NCBI GenBank assembly: GCA_013336165.1
Contig: JAAXUF010000017.1
Span: forward strand, 1-32,620
DNA length: 32,620 bases
Reading direction: 5' to 3'
Source of the DNA: Coriobacteriia bacterium
GTDB lineage: Bacteria; Actinomycetota; Coriobacteriia; Anaerosomatales; JAAXUF01
The notes beneath the pieces were generated by a model. The model ran no database searches. It worked only from the letters and a program-made list of their open reading frames with translations, and was not told where the DNA came from. Below, piece by piece: positions 23,346 to 32,620 of the stretch. A program made the position numbers and the translations under genes. The first letter of the stretch is position 1. Each line of letters begins with the position of its first letter.

Positions 23346-25463
23346 CTAGGGAGTAGGTGTCGTTGGGCCTGACCCGCCGGTGCCCGAGGTTGGAACGCTC
23401 GGTATCGTGGGCTGGGGGCCGCTTGACACGGTGACTATGATCTTGCCGTTGACGTTCCTCTGACTGATGATCGTACCGATCGGGAGATCCGACCACACGT
23501 ACTCGATCATGTCGGGCGTAAGTGATCCCACGGTGACAGGTATGTTGAACTTCGATGCGTCGTAGGCTGGAGTTCCAGCTGACGGGAAATCGAGCACCGG
23601 CTGATCCGCCAAGGCCAGCTTCATATAAGCCGCCCAGATCGGTGCCGAGACACTCCCGCCGTACGCGACAGTGCCGTTGACGTAGATCGTGCGCTCGGTG
23701 GGATATCCCACCCAGACCGAGGTCACCAGTTGCGGCGTGTAGCCGACGAACCACACGTCGCGACTCTGTTCACTGGTACCGGTTTTGCCCGCCGCAGGAC
23801 GATTGATATCGGCACGGGTGCCCGTTCCGTAGTCAATGACGCCGCTGAGGAGGTCGGTCGTTGCCCTAGCGATCTCCGGTGTAACCACACGATTGCCCGT
23901 GGGCTTTGCTTCGAAGACCGTCGCTCCGGTGCGATCCGTCACCTTCGTGATCATCGTCGGTGCGTAATGGATCCCGCCGGTCGCTAACGTTCCATACGCG
24001 GAAGCCATTTCAAGGGGGGTGACACCGGCGGCCCCAAGTGCGATGGCCGGGTACTCTGGAATGGGGGTGGTGACCCCCATTTTCTTGGCGGTTGCAGCCA
24101 CATTCTTGATCCCCAGCGCCATGGCGACGCGAGCGAACACGGTGTTCACGGAGCCGGCTGTGGCGCTGGCAAGTGACATCATGCCCGAGCCTCCACCTTC
24201 CGAGTTGTTCACCACCCACTCTGTGGGGGTGACCGCGAAGGTGGCAGGGGATGAAGAGTCGATTTCGAAGGTCGGAGGCATCCCCTGCTCGAGCGCGGTC
24301 ACGAGCACAAATGTCTTGAACGAAGAACCCGGCTGCCGGAGCGCCTGTGTGGCTAGGTTGAACTTGCTCTGGCTGTAGTCCCGGCCACCAACCAGTGCCT
24401 TGACGTAGCCGTTCTGAGGATCGATGGACACGAGCGCGACTTCGGGATCCTGCGGCGTGCTGAGCGTGGCGTGTGCGGACTGCTCGGCGTAGCCCTGAAG
24501 ACGGGTGTCGAGGGTTGTGTAGACGGTCAACCCTCCTCCGAAGACAACCGATTGCGGGAACTGCTGCTGGAGCTGCCTCTTGACTTCGGACACGAAGTAC
24601 GGCGCCGCGTAGATTCCCTCAGTAGGCTCGTTGTTCCGCTTGAGCACGAGCGGTACCGCGACGGCGGCCTCGTACTCGGCCTGAGTGATGTACTTGTTAT
24701 CGAGCATTTGCTCAAGGACGATATTTCGGCGGGCTAACGCTCCCTTGGGGTTTGTGTAGGGATCAAGGGCGCTTGGCGCCTGGGCCAATCCCGCGATAGT
24801 CGCCGATTCAGCCAGAGTCAATTCGCTCGCGTTCTTCGAGAAATAGATCCGGGCGGCGGACTGGGCGCCGTAGGCGCCTTCGCCGAGGTAGACCGTGTTG
24901 AGATACATCTCCAACACTTGCTGCTTGCTGAACTTCTTCTCGATCTCAAGCGCGAGGAAAGCCTCGCGGACTTTGCGTTTCAGCGTGATGTCGGTGCGCT
25001 CATCGATCAGGATGGTGTTTCGGATCAGCTGCTGGGTGATCGTTGACGCGCCCTGAGGAGTGCTTGCGTTGGAATTCGTGTTTGTGACCGCCGCGCGCAG
25101 GATACCCACCGGATCCACGCCAACATGCTGGTAGAAGCGTTCGTCCTCGACTGCGACCAAGGCGTCCGCCAGATCGGTCGCAATCTGCGACATCGCCACA
25201 GATTCGCGGTCTTGGAGGTAAAGCCTTGCGAGCAATACTCCGTCCGCCGAGTAGATCCGTGTAGGCTGCGTGACGTCGAAGGCGGTCTGCGACGAGTAGT
25301 CGGGGAGATCCTTCAGCCACCCCTGAACAAGCGTCAGCACCGCCATTGAGGCGATAACCGCAACAACAATCAACCCGGCGATCAGCGCCGTGCCGATACC
25401 CAGTGCGATCTTGCCGTACGGCGCCTTCTTGTTGCGGCGCACCTTCGCGCGTCTTCTCGACAT
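23346..25463 (-). CDS. Class A penicillin-binding protein with PASTA module
   Basis: The 705-residue bifunctional peptidoglycan synthase has a basic cytoplasmic N-terminus, one membrane span (about 18-45), a GT51 glycosyltransferase domain (catalytic Glu106 in EDERFYQH, GASTITQQL near 138-146), and a transpeptidase domain with S380-x-x-K383, SVN (438-440) and KTG (560-562). A single PASTA-like module (about 640-683) and a Pro/Ser/Gly tail follow. All catalytic residues are present, so it should be active in wall synthesis. The ATG is only one base after GAGGAG, an unusually close ribosome-binding site, with no better start nearby. It is divergent from the U32 gene and paralogous to the protein at 28003-30588. 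Confidence 0.94.
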   Translation of the reverse strand: MSRRRAKVRRNKKAPYGKIALGIGTALIAGLIVVAVIASMAVLTLVQGWLKDLPDYSSQTAFDVTQPTRIYSADGVLLARLYLQDRESVAMSQIATDLADALVAVEDERFYQHVGVDPVGILRAAVTNTNSNASTPQGASTITQQLIRNTILIDERTDITLKRKVREAFLALEIEKKFSKQQVLEMYLNTVYLGEGAYGAQSAARIYFSKNASELTLAESATIAGLAQAPSALDPYTNPKGALARRNIVLEQMLDNKYITQAEYEAAVAVPLVLKRNNEPTEGIYAAPYFVSEVKRQLQQQFPQSVVFGGGLTVYTTLDTRLQGYAEQSAHATLSTPQDPEVALVSIDPQNGYVKALVGGRDYSQSKFNLATQALRQPGSSFKTFVLVTALEQGMPPTFEIDSSSPATFAVTPTEWVVNNSEGGGSGMMSLASATAGSVNTVFARVAMALGIKNVAATAKKMGVTTPIPEYPAIALGAAGVTPLEMASAYGTLATGGIHYAPTMITKVTDRTGATVFEAKPTGNRVVTPEIARATTDLLSGVIDYGTGTRADINRPAAGKTGTSEQSRDVWFVGYTPQLVTSVWVGYPTERTIYVNGTVAYGGSVSAPIWAAYMKLALADQPVLDFPSAGTPAYDASKFNIPVTVGSLTPDMIEYVWSDLPIGTIISQRNVNGKIIVTVSSGPQPTIPSVPTSGTGGSGPTTPTP

Positions 25464-25485
25464 ACTCCTCGCAATCCAACAGTGA

Positions 25486-25494
25486 TGTTACATT
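25486..25494 (+). promoter_or_regulatory. Possible promoter of the U32 gene
   Basis: TGTTACATT at 25486-25494 matches an extended -10 in the gap between the divergent penicillin-binding protein and U32 genes. No -35 is obvious. The remaining bases of this ~100-nt gap must also contain the minus-strand promoter, which I cannot place with confidence. Confidence 0.35.
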
Positions 25495-25567
25495 GGTGCT
25501 CTACCGGGCGAAATGCATGCCATCGGCCAGGTTTGTTGTCGGCCTGTCAATCAGTATCGGAGAAACC

Positions 25568-27985
25568 GTGACCGCTTCTCGGACAGATGCCCCCGAACTT
25601 CTTGCCCCCGCCGGTTCCCTTGAGGGGCTTCGAGCCGCTGTGGCGAATGGTGCCAATGCGGTGTACCTCGGCGTCGAGGAGTTCAACGCACGGCGCGGCG
25701 CCGAGAACTTCAAGCTGGAAACCCTGTCAGATACCTGTCGGTATGCGCACTTGCACGAGGTTAAAGTGTACCTGACTGCGAACGTGGTCGTATTGCAGCA
25801 CGAACTGACCGACATTTTGAACATGGTGGACAGGGCGTGGGAGTCGGGAATTGATGCGGTCATCGTACAGGATCTGGGTGTGCTTCTCGCTATCAATCGC
25901 ACTATGCCGCATGTCCGGGTGCATGCATCGACGCAGATAAACGCGCACAACTCAATGACGCTTGGAACGCTTGCATCGATGGGGGTCAGCAGGGCGACCC
26001 TGGCGCGCGAGGTCTCCATCGAGGAAATTGCGTCCTTCGCCCGCCGAGACGACATCGAAGTAGAAACGTTCGTCCATGGAGCACTCTGTGTGTGCCACTC
26101 GGGGCAGTGCCTCATGTCGTCGGTGATCGGCAGACGCAGTGCCAACCGCGGGCTCTGCGCTCAACCGTGCCGCCTGCCCTACGAGCTGCTGGACCGCGAA
26201 GGCGCACCAATCGAGACGCCGGGTGCCCACTTGCTGTCGCCGAAGGATCTTGCCGGCATAGGCATGCTTCCGGATCTCGTCAGGGCCGGGGTTGCGGCCC
26301 TCAAGATCGAAGGTCGCATGAAGAGCGCCGAGTATGTCGCGCTCGTGACAGGCACCTACCGTGCGGCTCTCGACCGCGCGGTCGCCGATCCTGAAGGCTT
26401 CTCGGTACGGGACGGAGAGCAGGCGGTACTCGAGGAATCGTTCTCGCGCGGATTCTCGCAGGCGTACCTTGTCGGTGAGCGCGGGAACGCCATGATGAGC
26501 TACCAGCGACCCAACAATCGTGGCGTTCCCGTTGGGCGTGTCGTCTCAGTTGCCAGCGGCCTGGCTACGATTGACTTCGGAATCTCGGTCGATGCCGAAG
26601 ACACGTTGGAGTTCTGGACCTCAGCCGGTCGCTTTGCCCAGGCGGCCGGCCCCCTTGAACTGGCTGGTTCGGTCGTTCGCGCTGTCCCGGCAGGGGCACG
26701 GGCGGCGCTGAGGCTCGAGCATTCCGCCATTGCCGGGGACAGGGTCTTCCGTGTACGCAATGCATCGCTCACTCAAGCCGCTCGGCGCACGTTTGCCGCC
26801 TCCGGTGATGCCGATTCGATGCCGCTGTCGTTCTCGGTGCGTGTTGTCGCGGCCAGTCCGCTCAGCGTCGAGGTGCGTGACTGTCGGGGCGTAGTCGGGG
26901 TGGCCGAGGGCCCGATTGTTGAGCCTGCTCGCACCAAAGCCGTGACTGCCGAGGAAGTCGCCGAGCACATCGGGCGCCTGGGCGGAACTCCATATTGGAT
27001 AGAGGCGTGGAATCTCGAGATGTCACCGAACGTCGGAGTGGGGTTCTCGGCGCTGCACCGAGTGCGCCGAGACGCCATTGAGGCCTACGAGAGCGCCTTG
27101 CTTGCGCCGTGGCGAGACCGGCGGCGCGTCCATCCCGCGGTTCCCGCGGTGATGGGGGGACGGTCGAGAGCACCCCGGAGACAGCCGCTTGTCTTTGCGG
27201 CGGTGGAGGACTCGGACGTGGCCAAAGCATGTTTGGAGGCCGGAGCTGATTTCGTCCACATCCCGACCTATGCACTCAGGCCACACGATGCCGAGCTTCC
27301 GGGCATGGTTCCCCTGCTGCCGCGTATTGCCCACGATCGGGAATGCGGGGCCATACTCTCCCATGTGCGAGAAGGGGGAAGAGTCGTGGTCGGCAATCTC
27401 GGCCTGCTTGCCGAGGCCTCACGTCGGGGCGCAGCCACGGAGGCGCATTGGTCCCTAAACGCTTTGAACTCGCTTTCGGTGGAGCAGCTTGCGGGGATGG
27501 GGGCATCGCTGGTCTGGCTCTCGCCGGAACTGTCCGGTCACCAGATCGAGCAGATCGTTTCCGCCTCGCAGGTCCCAGTCGGAATCGCCGTATACGGCCA
27601 CCACGAAGTCATGGTTACCGAGCACTGCGTGCTGATGGCTGAGGGCGATTGTAAGAGGTCCTGCGGCACCTGCTCGCGCCGCAGGACGAAGCATACCCTT
27701 CGGGACCGAAAAGACTACGAGTTCCCGATTCAGACCGACACCACGGGACGCACGCATATCTACAACGCGGTCCCCCTCGATCTGTCTGCGGCATTGCCTG
27801 AACTGCTGGCGACGGGCGTTGAGGCACTGCGCCTCGATCTGGCAGTCGAGTCGCCTCAGGAGGCCGCGCAGCAGGTCCGGCGGGTGCGGATGGCCCTGGG
27901 GATCGCGCTTGCGGGGAGTGTGCCTCCACGGCGCGACGATGGAGTGGCAACCACCACAGGGCATTTCTTCAGAGGCGCGATCTGA
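25568..27985 (+). CDS. U32-family peptidase/hydroxylation protein, long form
   Basis: The 805-residue protein starts with the U32 barrel (LLAPAGSLEGLRAAVANGAN, AVYLGVEEFNARRG) and its cysteine cluster: C174, C176, C181, C197 and C201 in CVCHSGQC and NRGLCAQPCR. A beta-rich DUF3656-like middle follows, then a second U32-like module with its own cysteines (C687, C695, C699, C702). Such long forms include RlhA, which hydroxylates 23S rRNA; older names call the family collagenase-like peptidases, and proteolysis is poorly supported for this type. An Fe-S cluster on the cysteines is likely. Start GTG at 25568 has GGAG 5 nt before it; an in-frame ATG at 25517 has no good site. It ends 17 nt from the convergent gene. 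Confidence 0.88.
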   Translation: MTASRTDAPELLAPAGSLEGLRAAVANGANAVYLGVEEFNARRGAENFKLETLSDTCRYAHLHEVKVYLTANVVVLQHELTDILNMVDRAWESGIDAVIVQDLGVLLAINRTMPHVRVHASTQINAHNSMTLGTLASMGVSRATLAREVSIEEIASFARRDDIEVETFVHGALCVCHSGQCLMSSVIGRRSANRGLCAQPCRLPYELLDREGAPIETPGAHLLSPKDLAGIGMLPDLVRAGVAALKIEGRMKSAEYVALVTGTYRAALDRAVADPEGFSVRDGEQAVLEESFSRGFSQAYLVGERGNAMMSYQRPNNRGVPVGRVVSVASGLATIDFGISVDAEDTLEFWTSAGRFAQAAGPLELAGSVVRAVPAGARAALRLEHSAIAGDRVFRVRNASLTQAARRTFAASGDADSMPLSFSVRVVAASPLSVEVRDCRGVVGVAEGPIVEPARTKAVTAEEVAEHIGRLGGTPYWIEAWNLEMSPNVGVGFSALHRVRRDAIEAYESALLAPWRDRRRVHPAVPAVMGGRSRAPRRQPLVFAAVEDSDVAKACLEAGADFVHIPTYALRPHDAELPGMVPLLPRIAHDRECGAILSHVREGGRVVVGNLGLLAEASRRGAATEAHWSLNALNSLSVEQLAGMGASLVWLSPELSGHQIEQIVSASQVPVGIAVYGHHEVMVTEHCVLMAEGDCKRSCGTCSRRRTKHTLRDRKDYEFPIQTDTTGRTHIYNAVPLDLSAALPELLATGVEALRLDLAVESPQEAAQQVRRVRMALGIALAGSVPPRRDDGVATTTGHFFRGAI

Positions 27986-28002: not shown

Positions 28003-30588
28003 CTACTGTATCTTGATGGTCTTTGTGATCGTGGTCGCCTGGCCGCTGTTATCGGTCACCTTGAGAGTGACTTTGTGGTCGCCGGTGGTCTTCCACTGGT
28101 GAGTCACTTTCGTTCCGTTGCTCGGCAGGGTGCCATCATCAAACTCCCAGTACCATTCGACGACCGTTCCGTCGTCCTTCGAAAGTGAGCCGTCGATAGC
28201 GACGGATTCATTGACATTTGCAGTGACGGGTATGGAGAACTCCGCAGTCGGTGCCTTGTCGGCGGGGCTTGCGGCAATTGTCACGGTAACAGCAGCTCCC
28301 TCTGTGACTGAGCTTCCAGCCGCTGGAGTCTGTGCGGCAACCGTGCCCGCCGTCACACCGCTCACGCTCTTCTCGAATATAGTCGCTGCCAACTTCAGGT
28401 TGCTGAGCGCCGTCAACGCCTGTGCCTTGGTCATGCCCACAAGGTTGGGCATCGTGATGGTAGTGGGTGCTACGTGCAGAGTGCAAGACGTGAGTTGAGT
28501 TCCTGCGAGGAAGAGCGAGTCTGCTGTCTTGGGACAGCTGGCGGTTGCAGCAAGGCCGGTATCCTGGCACACCGTGATCTTCGTGAGACCTGATGGCTGA
28601 GTGAAATCCTGCGCCGGGGTCGAGGCTAGGGCGGCCTTCATGAACTTGGCCCACATGGTTGCCGGGAATGAGCCTCCGGTGACCAGTTTCCCATGGACAT
28701 TCGTCATGGGCTTCTGCGAGTCCACATATCCCATCCAGACTGCTGTCGCCAATTGCGGGGTGTAGCCGACAAACCACGCATCGGCGTTGTTCTCGGTCGT
28801 GCCGGTCTTGCCGGCGGCAGGGCGGCCGATTTGAGCGCCGGTGCCGGTTCCTTTGCTGATGACGCCTCTCAGGATGTCCGTGGTCAGATACGCGATCGCG
28901 GGATTGATCACTTGGCTGGTCTGGGGCTTCGCCGAGTACAAGACCTTGCCTGCAGCGTCTTTGACCTCGGTGATGCCGTATGGCGCTGCGTAGGTCCCGT
29001 TTGTGGCCAAAGTGGCGTAGGCAGCAGCCATCTCCAGGGGATTCATGTCCATGACACCCAGTGCGATTGCGGGAACTGGCGAGATTCCCGTGTGGATGCC
29101 CATCTTCTCGGCCGTCTGGACAACCTTCTGGGGTGTCACCTGAATAACAAGTTGTGCATACACCGCGTTGACCGATTGCTCGGTTGCGACCCTCAGGCGC
29201 AATGGCTCACCAGTGCCGCCTGGCTCTCCTTTGACACTCCAGATCTCATTGCCCACTGGCAGGTCAATCGCGGCAGATGAGTAGGTCTGTTCCGGACTGA
29301 TCCCCTGCGTCAGCGCCGTGATCAGAACGAAAGGCTTGAAGGTGGACCCCGGTTGACGTCCCTTGCCCACGGCTGCGTTGAACTGCTGGGTCTTGAAGTC
29401 GCGGCCGCCGACCATTGCGAGAACCTCTCCCGTGCCCGGACGGATCGAGACCAGAGCCGCCGAGGGGTCTTCCGGTTTGTTCAGCGTATCCGCAATTGCC
29501 TTCTCGGCAGCCTGCTGCGTGGTCAGATCGAGCGTCGTTGTGATCGTGAGACCGTCGCGGTACAGCACGTCGTCCCCGTACATCCCCACAAGCTGAGCCG
29601 TGACCCACTGCACGAAGTAGGGAGCGTTTGACGCAGCCGACTTGAGGCCGACGGGTTTGACCGGAGTCGCGACAGCGGCGTCGTAGTCCGCTTGGGAGAT
29701 GTATCCCTGCGACAGCATCTGGGACAGGACGGTGTCGCGCCGCTGTTTTGCGGCCGTGAGGTCAACGTAGGGAGAGTAAGTGCCCGGGGACTTAATGACA
29801 CCCGCAAGCATGGCTGACTCGGCTAGGGTGAGATTCTCCACACTCTTGCCGAAGTAGAGCTGCGCAGCCGATTCTACGCCCCACGCACCGTGGCCAAAGC
29901 AGATCGTGTTCATATAAAGCTCAAGTACCTGATCCTTGCTGTAGAGCTTGTTGACTTTGCTTGCGAGCATGGCTTCCATGATCTTACGCTTGAAGGACAC
30001 GTCGGTTGAACCGAATGCGTTCTTCACGTACTGCTGGGTTATCGTGGAACCGCCCTGTCGGGGTTTGCGGAGGACGTAGTCGTTTACGAGGGCCCGAAGG
30101 ATTCCTATCGGGTCGACTCCGCTGTGCTGGTAGAACCGCTGATCCTCTGTGGCGATCACCGCCTGTCGAAGCGCTGCGGGCATCTTCGCGAGGGATTTGT
30201 CCACACGGTTCTGATCGGCATACAACTTGGCCAGGACCACTCCGTTGCGATCGAGAATTGTGGTGGTCTGGTCCCGTCCTCGAGCTTGCGTAAGGTCGGG
30301 GTCAGGCAGAGACGAGTCCAGCCTCGCATACGCTACGCCGCCCAGCCCTCCGAGCAACACAACAGCGATCGCAGCGCACAGCAGGACCCAGCGAAGGATG
30401 CGTCCCCTTCGTTTGGGGGTCCGCCGCCCTTTCTTTCGAGGAGCGCTCGTTGGAGGACGACGGGTCGCCGACGTGTGGCGCGGAGCCGTTGAGCCGCTGC
30501 GGGCGCGAGGCGTACTTCGCGCATCTGACTTGCGCGAACCTGCCGAGCGACCATCGCCGCTGTTTCGACGGGGACGATATTCTGTCAT
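28003..30588 (-). CDS. Class A penicillin-binding protein with PASTA and PKD domains
   Basis: This 861-residue synthase has a 62-residue basic, Ser/Arg/Pro-rich cytoplasmic tail, one membrane span (65-88), a GT51 domain (Glu148 in EDQRFYQH, GGSTITQQY near 179-187), and a transpeptidase with S415-x-x-K418, SVN (472-474) and KTG (594-596). A cysteine-bearing linker (C674, C685, C702) leads to a PASTA module (about 711-775; MPNLVGMTKAQALTALSN) and a C-terminal PKD domain (about 778-861) with EWYWEFDDGT and HQWKTTGDHKVTLKV. PKD domains are beta sandwiches usually involved in extracellular binding. The start at 30588 is chosen because AAGGG is about 10 nt upstream and the next frame extension runs into the tyrS gene on the other strand. 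Confidence 0.94.
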   Translation of the reverse strand: MTEYRPRRNSGDGRSAGSRKSDARSTPRARSGSTAPRHTSATRRPPTSAPRKKGRRTPKRRGRILRWVLLCAAIAVVLLGGLGGVAYARLDSSLPDPDLTQARGRDQTTTILDRNGVVLAKLYADQNRVDKSLAKMPAALRQAVIATEDQRFYQHSGVDPIGILRALVNDYVLRKPRQGGSTITQQYVKNAFGSTDVSFKRKIMEAMLASKVNKLYSKDQVLELYMNTICFGHGAWGVESAAQLYFGKSVENLTLAESAMLAGVIKSPGTYSPYVDLTAAKQRRDTVLSQMLSQGYISQADYDAAVATPVKPVGLKSAASNAPYFVQWVTAQLVGMYGDDVLYRDGLTITTTLDLTTQQAAEKAIADTLNKPEDPSAALVSIRPGTGEVLAMVGGRDFKTQQFNAAVGKGRQPGSTFKPFVLITALTQGISPEQTYSSAAIDLPVGNEIWSVKGEPGGTGEPLRLRVATEQSVNAVYAQLVIQVTPQKVVQTAEKMGIHTGISPVPAIALGVMDMNPLEMAAAYATLATNGTYAAPYGITEVKDAAGKVLYSAKPQTSQVINPAIAYLTTDILRGVISKGTGTGAQIGRPAAGKTGTTENNADAWFVGYTPQLATAVWMGYVDSQKPMTNVHGKLVTGGSFPATMWAKFMKAALASTPAQDFTQPSGLTKITVCQDTGLAATASCPKTADSLFLAGTQLTSCTLHVAPTTITMPNLVGMTKAQALTALSNLKLAATIFEKSVSGVTAGTVAAQTPAAGSSVTEGAAVTVTIAASPADKAPTAEFSIPVTANVNESVAIDGSLSKDDGTVVEWYWEFDDGTLPSNGTKVTHQWKTTGDHKVTLKVTDNSGQATTITKTIKIQ

Positions 30589-30713
30589 GCGGTGGTTGCC
30601 CTTCGTTTGAGAGCCTCGTCGTTGCAGTTGACGGGCATCAACACATACGGCGCACAGTTGGCGCTTGGTGCGCGCTCGGCCTCGGCCGGTACTCTGGTAG
30701 TATGACATGCAAG

Positions 30714-30744: not shown

Positions 30745-32001
30745 ATGGTGACGTCTTGGAAGGTTCCCGCATTGCTGGAAGGACGACGACCTTTGCTTTC
30801 TGCCGACGAGCAGCTCAAGATCATACAAAGCGGCATTGCCGATCTCGTTCCAAATGCCGACATGGTGCGCAAGCTCAAGAAGGGCGCCCCCCTTCGCATC
30901 AAGCTTGGCGTCGACCCTACGGCGCCGGATCTGCATCTCGGGCACGCCGTGCCCCTGCGCAAGTTGAGGCAGTTTCAGGACCTCGGGCATACGGTGGTAC
31001 TGATCATCGGGGACTTCACGGCGTTGATCGGCGATCCTTCGGGCAGAAACACCACGCGGCCCGCGCTATCGCTCGAGCAGATCAACGAGAATGCGCGAAC
31101 CTATGTGGATCAGGCTTTCAGAATCCTGGATCCGCAGAAGACGGAGCTAAGACGCAATTCCGAATGGCTCGGCAAGCTCGGCTTCGCCGACTTGCAGCGT
31201 CTGGCGAGCAGATTCACGGTGGCCCGAATTCTCGAACGTGACGATTTCTCCAAGCGATTCTCCGATCGCCAACCGATTTCGCTCCATGAGTTCCTGTATC
31301 CAGTTGCGCAGGCATACGACTCGGTTGTCATCGAAGCAGACGTGGAACTGGGCGGCACCGACCAGCTCTTCAATTTGCTGGCGGGGCGAGAACTCATGGA
31401 GAAGCTCGCTATGGAACCGCAGGTGGCCCTGACCCTGCCACTGCTCGAGGGGACCGATGGCATTCAGAAGATGAGCAAGTCGTACGGCAACTACATAGGG
31501 CTTACTGACATGCCTGAGGAAATATTCGGTAAAGTCATGTCCATCCCAGACGGGCTCATGTTGAAGTACTACACGCTCTGCACATCTTTGCCCGTAGCCG
31601 AAGTCGACAAAATCGGTGCAGCCATTGGCGCGGGGGAGTTGCCGGCCAACCAGGCCAAGCGCAGACTCGCGCGAGAAATCGTGGCACTCTACCATGGCGC
31701 CGATGCATCCATCGATGCTGAAGCCGCGTTCGATAGAGTATTCAAGGACCATCAGGCGCCCGCGGACTTACCTGAGATACCTGTTGCTCTGTCTGACGAA
31801 GTCTACCTTCCGGGGCTACTTCACGAACTGGGTCTGGTGACTTCGACCTCCGAAGGCCGCAGGATGATTGACCAAGGCGCGGTCAAGCTTGATGGAGCGT
31901 CGTTGAAGCCGGGCATATATTTGTGCGCGTGCGCGCGTGTGGATGGGCACATACTGCAGGTGGGTAAACGCCGCTTCGCCAAGCCGAGGAACAATAGCTA
32001 G
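30745..32001 (+). CDS. tyrS: Tyrosyl-tRNA synthetase
   Basis: The 418-residue class I enzyme charges tRNA-Tyr. The HIGH motif reads HLGH (64-67) after KLGVDPTAPDL, LIIGDFTALIGDPSGR follows, KMSKS is at 242-246, and an S4 RNA-binding domain ends the protein (about 355-415). The KLGVDPTAPDLHLGH text places it in the TyrRS subgroup common outside enterobacteria and Bacillus TyrS. The ATG at 30745 has no ribosome-binding site and lies five bases after a TATAAA; TTG at 30772 has GGAAGG 8 nt before it, and TTG at 30793 has GGAAGG 10 nt before it. The true start may therefore be 9 or 16 codons later. No T-box precedes it. Confidence 0.95.
   Translation: MVTSWKVPALLEGRRPLLSADEQLKIIQSGIADLVPNADMVRKLKKGAPLRIKLGVDPTAPDLHLGHAVPLRKLRQFQDLGHTVVLIIGDFTALIGDPSGRNTTRPALSLEQINENARTYVDQAFRILDPQKTELRRNSEWLGKLGFADLQRLASRFTVARILERDDFSKRFSDRQPISLHEFLYPVAQAYDSVVIEADVELGGTDQLFNLLAGRELMEKLAMEPQVALTLPLLEGTDGIQKMSKSYGNYIGLTDMPEEIFGKVMSIPDGLMLKYYTLCTSLPVAEVDKIGAAIGAGELPANQAKRRLAREIVALYHGADASIDAEAAFDRVFKDHQAPADLPEIPVALSDEVYLPGLLHELGLVTSTSEGRRMIDQGAVKLDGASLKPGIYLCACARVDGHILQVGKRRFAKPRNNS

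Positions 32002-32502: not shown

Positions 32503-32620
<118 letters not shown>

Follow-up and report, generated by a model that had tools for sequence, protein, structure and literature searches.

To our knowledge, the placement of class A penicillin-binding proteins (PBPs) in the wall has been worked out in few model species only. The locus described here raises the question of what a second small domain may do at the C-terminal end of such an enzyme, behind a PASTA domain. The window, by which we mean the whole stretch of DNA analysed (32,620 nucleotides of a Coriobacteriia contig), contains a class A PBP gene whose end had been described in a preliminary description as a PASTA domain followed by a PKD domain, a domain order thought to be unusual. 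We asked whether the last domain is indeed a PKD, how widely the PASTA-PKD tail is carried and which function it might have.

Domain order of the penicillin-binding protein

The following features of the gene were assigned:

28003..30588, minus strand, class A PBP gene (ATG at 30588, stop codon 28005..28003; 861 amino acids)
30322..30396, minus strand, probable single transmembrane segment (about residues 66-90, after the basic cytoplasmic N-terminus; by eye)
29716..30243, minus strand, GT51 glycosyltransferase domain (PF00912, Transgly, 212.1 bits; residues 117-292)
28708..29451, minus strand, transpeptidase domain (PF00905, 118 bits; residues 381-628)
28273-28458, minus strand, PASTA domain (PF03793, 52.2 bits, cut-off 23.2; residues 712-773; 56.6 bits in the genome-wide search)
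28009-28257, minus strand, C-terminal PKD domain (PF18911, PKD_4, 61.4 bits, cut-off 27, E 8.7e-17; residues 779-861)

The open frame spans 30591..28003 on the minus strand, and the residue numbers above are those of its translation (P0001), which has one extra leading residue. All four domains scored above their Pfam cut-offs in the order GT51, transpeptidase, PASTA and PKD. With GT51 and then a transpeptidase in a single chain, the protein is by profile a class A PBP. In NCBIfam it was assigned to the PBP1A subfamily TIGR02074 with 565.3 bits (cut-off 508.75), and none of the 18 other NCBIfam families that it matched reached its own cut-off. When the translation was inspected by eye, STFK, SVN and KTGTT were found in the transpeptidase domain, and EDQRFYQHSG and GGSTITQQ were also intact; these we take to be the catalytic motifs of a class A PBP. 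The protein is probably an intact and working bifunctional enzyme. Since its hydrophobic segment lies behind a basic N-terminus, all four domains, and with them the PASTA-PKD tail, would be expected outside the membrane.

The C-terminal domain is a PKD domain

The strings EWYWEFDDGT and HQWKTTGDHKVTL, cited in the preliminary description for the PKD, were both found in the minus-strand frame 30591..28003. The tail has WEFDDG, in agreement with W-x-F-x-D-G, which we take to be the PKD motif, and W113 and F115 were invariant in the 30 PKD rows of the order. Besides PKD_4, the PKD family PF00801 was matched with 49.3 bits (cut-off 23.5, residues 790-857). When the source genome (1,987,874 bases, 99.5% complete) was searched, the same domain scored 66.1 bits with PKD_4 and was the sole PKD_4 match at E values up to 0.001. 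The closest solved chains by sequence were collagenase PKDs (ColH, E 3e-15), and this was likewise the case for the tail profile A1.

The structure of the tail was predicted, as had been suggested, with AlphaFold2 from an alignment of the tail with one other row, the relative L002. The model (mean pLDDT 81.9) showed a PASTA-like part with one helix (21-30) and strands, and a sandwich with six strands listed at 81-160. The relative placement of the two parts is unreliable (pTM 0.51), so that we infer, rather than see, an extension of the tail by the PKD. The top five Foldseek matches were all collagenase PKDs. With VIA-align, the PKD part was superimposed on the ColG PKD 4tn9 with a Z of 13.9 (rmsd 1.4, 84 residues) and the PASTA part on the S. 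aureus PBP1 PASTA 7o4c with a Z of 9.9, whereas the best chain with an FN3-like title reached a Z of 10.0 for the PKD part. Among the Pfam families listed for P0001 at E values up to 0.1, neither FN3 nor Big was present, and BiPBP_C (PF06832) scored 15.6 bits at residues 789-855, below its cut-off of 26.8. In one relative (L086), Big_9 was seen with 17.2 bits, under its cut-off of 23.6, alongside PKD_4 with 78.5 bits. FN3, Big and BiPBP_C were rejected as the best label for the tail because PKD profiles and PKD structures scored clearly higher. The C-terminal domain of the tail is a true PKD, and the earlier claim of a PKD after the PASTA on a PBP was borne out by profile and fold, the predicted β-sandwich fitting a PKD better than an FN3-like chain. 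The span first given for it, 28003-28340, includes the whole PKD and extends further over roughly the final third of the PASTA.

The PASTA-PKD tail within the order

The distribution of the tail was tested with the profile A1 in 69 genomes of the order, where an E value of 1e-20 or better was counted as a match. The tail was matched in 63 genomes, and in 62 of these PASTA and PKD were covered by a single match. In G022, the match comprised the PKD end only, in an open frame of 56 residues, and another PKD was found elsewhere in this genome. Six genomes (G002, G507, G012, G023, G131 and G013) had no tail by this profile; G002 belongs to the same family as the source and is 97% complete. The protein or its tail therefore seems to be dispensable in some lineages, or the assemblies miss it. 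When only genomes with a completeness of 90% or more and a contamination of 5% or less were considered, A1 was matched in 48 of 51.

Whole-protein searches showed the catalytic part and the tail in one unbroken match in 59 of the 62 genomes. The first search covered 41 genomes (the source, two of its family and 38 others of its order) and gave 33 unbroken matches; the second gave 26 of 26, with best matches of 50-55% identity. In G007, which is counted among these 59, the match contains a TAA. In G017, G029 and G040 the tail was present and the catalytic part was interrupted by a contig end or divided over frames or contigs. G051, in which the match begins at query residue 53, and G025 both have a full-length PASTA-PKD PBP, and a further one lies on the Coriobacteriia MAG record WRDS01000008.1 (L002), with which the locus L013 of G027 coincides. 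In G122, two full-length copies were observed on contigs C55 and C21, each about 2.5 kb from a second PBP; this may be due to duplication or, as the genome has 3% contamination, to mixing in the assembly. The full-length relatives show 48-61% identity across the order, which puts the PASTA-PKD tail far above chance. All 30 fully read loci of the order have exactly one PASTA followed by one PKD in the same register.

An artefact of assembly or gene calling, or a random recent fusion, has next to no probability, as the same tail occurs in 62 of the 69 order assemblies, including the single-contig G014, and in WRDS01000008.1. A one-off fusion or artefact is ruled out by these relatives. PASTA-PKD is the standard end of this PBP gene in its order and, being near-universal there, a stable and seemingly undescribed accessory tail.

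The neighbours of the gene are:

30745..32001, plus strand, tyrS-like aminoacyl-tRNA synthetase gene, divergent from the PBP gene (PF00579, Trp and Tyr synthetases, 256 bits; Tyr is the presumed specificity)
25403..27985, plus strand, U32 peptidase-family gene, convergent with the PBP gene (PF01136, 309.3 bits)

The tyrS gene lies back to back with the PBP gene in 28 of the 30 order loci; the exceptions are L029 and L024, the latter beginning at a contig end. In 27 of the loci the PBP gene has the U32 gene beside it (not in L013, L017 and L035). Outside the order, tyrS adjoins the PBP gene in 8 of 10 relatives tested (not in L091 and L095). The same adjacency inside and outside the order makes it most likely that the relatives represent the same gene.

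A second class A PBP gene is encoded about 2.5 kb away, past the U32 gene (23346-25463, minus strand). Pfam found no PASTA in it; by eye, its tail LPIGTIISQ...GKIIVTVSSGP resembles the latter half of a PASTA and may be a decayed one. The only other PASTA matches in the source genome are the four of L115 (contig C16, 17732-18511). They lie in one open frame of 631 residues, in which Ser/Thr kinase motifs were recognised by eye, so that a PASTA kinase would coexist with the PASTA-PKD synthase. The rest of the region 1522-32001 is mostly housekeeping by Pfam, with valine-, threonine- and phenylalanine-type tRNA synthetases, a Mur ligase-family (folC-like) gene and an arginine biosynthesis run resembling argC, J, B, D, G and H (gene names are our assignment). 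No Rfam leader scored over threshold in the window. The contig breaks off within a 16S rRNA gene, of which it holds the first 117 positions (32503-32620, plus strand), a typical assembly break.

Spread outside the order and exchange of the last domain

Among 149 genomes sampled from the class, the tail profile was matched at an E value of 1e-15 in 63 of the 68 order genomes and in none of the 81 from its other orders. For the phylum, 396 genomes were searched at 1e-20 with at most 9 candidates scored per genome and hence at lower sensitivity. Of the 22 matches, 4 were in the order and 14 were to the PKD only, and the remaining 4 combined PASTA and PKD in genomes outside the order. These last four (G372, G428, G324 and G444) come from a single other class, of which 36 genomes were covered; a fifth match in this class (G334) was to the PKD alone. 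The four domains were confirmed by Pfam in L086 (of G372), L089 (of G428) and L071 (of G444, with GT51 cut by the locus end). A scan of genome contigs with patterns taken from the source PBP confirmed five relatives, of which L002 has PASTA-PKD, whereas the tail is missing from the other four, which are Veillonella PBPs. In the sampled phylum, the PASTA-PKD tail is rare outside the order. The earlier impression of an unusual domain order holds in that our literature searches found no description of the order GT51-transpeptidase-PASTA-PKD, but the case is not an isolated one, given the 62 of 69 genomes of the order and the 4 of 36 in another class.

The ends of the relatives outside the order were then compared, with PASTA and PKD assigned by profiles built from A1. 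In the other actinobacterial class, four relatives (L087, L090, L091 and L093) end in PASTA-PASTA, and the four genomes named above in PASTA-PKD. A single PASTA is found at the end of L088 and L092. L085 (G041), from another order of the source's own class, has 51% identity and the tyrS and U32 neighbours and carries neither tail domain; it terminates in a Ser/Thr-rich stub ahead of the PASTA position. A decayed PASTA past the stop of L085 was considered and rejected. The match to query residue 781 crosses two stops, and as the stretch lies opposite the U32 gene and is not PASTA-like, the extension of the match is taken as chance. Since the ends of the orthologues differ, the last slot is exchangeable and can hold nothing, a PASTA or a PKD.

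To follow this exchange, a tree was calculated from the catalytic part of 41 proteins with the tail left out. The split between the 30 order proteins with L085 and the remaining ten had 100/100 support, and the PKD-bearing PBPs of the other class were placed among the PASTA-only ones. At least three changes in the PKD label are forced by branches with good support, and a branch with just the PKD proteins on one side was recovered in 0% of 200 bootstrap trees. The outcome was the same in a quick tree with 63 rows, with 5 changes of which at least 3 are forced; it left out the duplicates L068-L070 and L013 (a duplicate of L002), the partial L111 and the unread L098. In a tree of the PKDs only, all PBP-attached PKDs together against 23 other PKDs gave an AU p of 0.152, from too few columns. 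The forced changes and the lack of a PKD clade in the bootstraps make separate gains, or a gain with repeated exchange for PASTA, likelier than one gain that was kept. This suggests that the PKD was gained separately in both classes, and one gain with losses would also be allowed.

The occupation of the slot by a PASTA in relatives would be expected if the PKD were a pure spacer or cap. Without a ligand it would merely lengthen or shield the C-terminus, and any small sandwich or second PASTA would serve. The least variable PKD residues, for example W113, F115, D117, G118 and L141, are likewise mostly generic residues of the PKD fold, as we assume. Against this stand the 30 of 30 loci with always one PKD in the same register and the lineage-specific tryptophan described below. 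A spacer is a possible reading, though one on the unlikely side.

Constraint on the PKD and a lineage-specific tryptophan

The constraint on the tail was estimated from the mean pairwise identity of 435 pairs of order proteins, which was 65.8% for GT51, 66.6% for the transpeptidase, 47.6% for the PASTA and 47.4% for the PKD. The cytoplasmic N-terminal tail showed 24.9% (427 pairs). Since its identity is close to that of the PASTA and well above that of the N-terminus, the PKD is held like the PASTA and is not drifting as the N-terminus is; its conservation is no higher than that of the PASTA and much below that of the catalytic domains.

In the VTLWVTD strand of the PKD, a tryptophan is present in 27 of the 30 order orthologues, with Lys in two, including the source copy, and Arg in one. 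At the same position in other PKDs of the phylum, Thr was found in 24 of 27, Lys, Ala and Glu in one each and Trp in none. These 27 are the scorable ones of 30 PKDs from 13 loci of 12 genomes; they are PKD-only matches with several per protein and so not independent. Thr was also read by eye at this place in the PKDs that are attached to PBPs in the other class, and the collagenase PKDs have Lys or Arg in the aligned sequences. The alternation of residues along the strand suggests that the Trp side chain points outward.

The preliminary description had proposed that the PKD could dock the synthase to a surface polymer. For a polysaccharide, an aromatic, carbohydrate-binding face of the PKD could serve for this, and the Trp, with its presumed outward direction and its absence from all 27 scored other PKDs, would be the one lineage-specific hint of such a binding face. 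The Lys of the source copy hints against the Trp being essential, and the other two exceptions, with Lys and Arg, and the collagenase PKDs, with the same two residues, also speak against docking to a polysaccharide, as does the dependence among the comparison PKDs. PKDs in other enzymes are, moreover, often linkers. From the sequences we regard polysaccharide docking as unlikely.

A broader proposal would treat the last slot as an exchangeable cassette for wall recognition, with the PKD of the order having become a specific receptor, marked by the outward-facing Trp, whose target would be a polymer of the wall or surface that only this order has, and with a separate exchange in the other class. 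We consider this a quite unlikely, speculative reading.

Possible function of the tail

With moderate confidence, and going by sequence features, we propose that PASTA-PKD is an extracytoplasmic positioning tail of the class A PBP. The PASTA would recognise the wall in its nascent or crosslinked form. The PKD would lengthen the tail and add a second contact, to a wall glycopolymer, a surface layer or a partner protein. In this way the synthase could be kept at, or steered to, particular sites of wall growth, with the PKD taking no part in catalysis. The proposal builds on the domains and their fold, the fixed tail in the order, the exchange in the last slot and the constraint on the PKD. Against it count the six order genomes that lack the tail, L085 with neither tail domain, a PKD conservation no higher than that of the PASTA, the unreliable placement of PASTA and PKD to each other, and the Lys in place of the Trp in the source copy. 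As a second PASTA fills the PKD slot elsewhere, a related job in wall recognition or reach can be argued for the PKD.

The partner could also be the main target, in that the PKD would bind an extracytoplasmic activator or a divisome protein. Such docking is found in E. coli PBP1B, where UB2H contacts LpoB, and several class A PBPs are controlled via non-catalytic domains. The neighbouring tyrS and U32 peptidase-family genes are not envelope-partner-like and speak against it. According to the accessible part of one report, PKDs are predicted to contact proteins elsewhere, in the context of serine proteases (PMC2605481). Partner docking seems improbable to us.

For the positioning tail that we favour, the exchange at a conserved locus across the order offers a natural experiment, as the synthase occurs with no tail, with PASTA, with PASTA-PASTA or with PASTA-PKD. 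A ligand of the PKD, should there be one, would identify the envelope component by which the wall synthase is placed in this lineage. The order is probably Anaerosomatales (OPB41), in which case its two described isolates make the proposal testable; Anaerosoma tenue and Parvivirga hydrogeniphila are given a Gram-positive wall type in the part of PMC9686372 available to us, the main text of which does not mention penicillin, peptidoglycan or PKD.

Comparison with known systems

PASTA domains in Actinobacteria have reportedly been surveyed by Ogawara in 2016 (J. Antibiot.). In the sections available of a PASTA review, these domains are reported in Actinobacteria solely in class A PBPs, and peptidoglycan is bound by some PBP PASTAs and not by others such as that of PonA2 (PMC6273383); PKD does not occur in its main text. 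Elsewhere, as far as the accessible parts of these papers go, an internalin with three PKDs is described (PMC4293459), and PKD-named and PBP-named proteins appear as table entries, with one accession under both names in two tables (PMC10535722).

The PonA2-type class A PBPs of Actinobacteria likewise consist of GT51, transpeptidase and a C-terminal PASTA, and the source PBP differs by the PKD that is added after the PASTA. A terminal sandwich domain (BiPBP_C) on a class A PBP is known from PBP1C (PbpC), and the NCBIfam PBP_1c model aligns over residues 103-859 of the source PBP. This equivalog reaches only 306.1 bits against its cut-off of 494.2, BiPBP_C stays below its own, and the source PBP has a PASTA. 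In the clostridial collagenases ColG and ColH, which have the closest solved PKDs by sequence and fold, the PKDs sit between the peptidase and the collagen-binding domains, whereas the PKD described here sits behind a PASTA on a wall synthase. The same catalytic protein is present in L087, L090, L091 and L093, with 44-46% identity and, in three of the four, an adjacent tyrS; their second PASTA occupies the slot that is held by the PKD in the source PBP. In conclusion, a class A PBP with a C-terminal accessory domain is a known arrangement, and the PASTA-PKD order at its end is a seemingly new form of it, undescribed as far as our literature searches reached.
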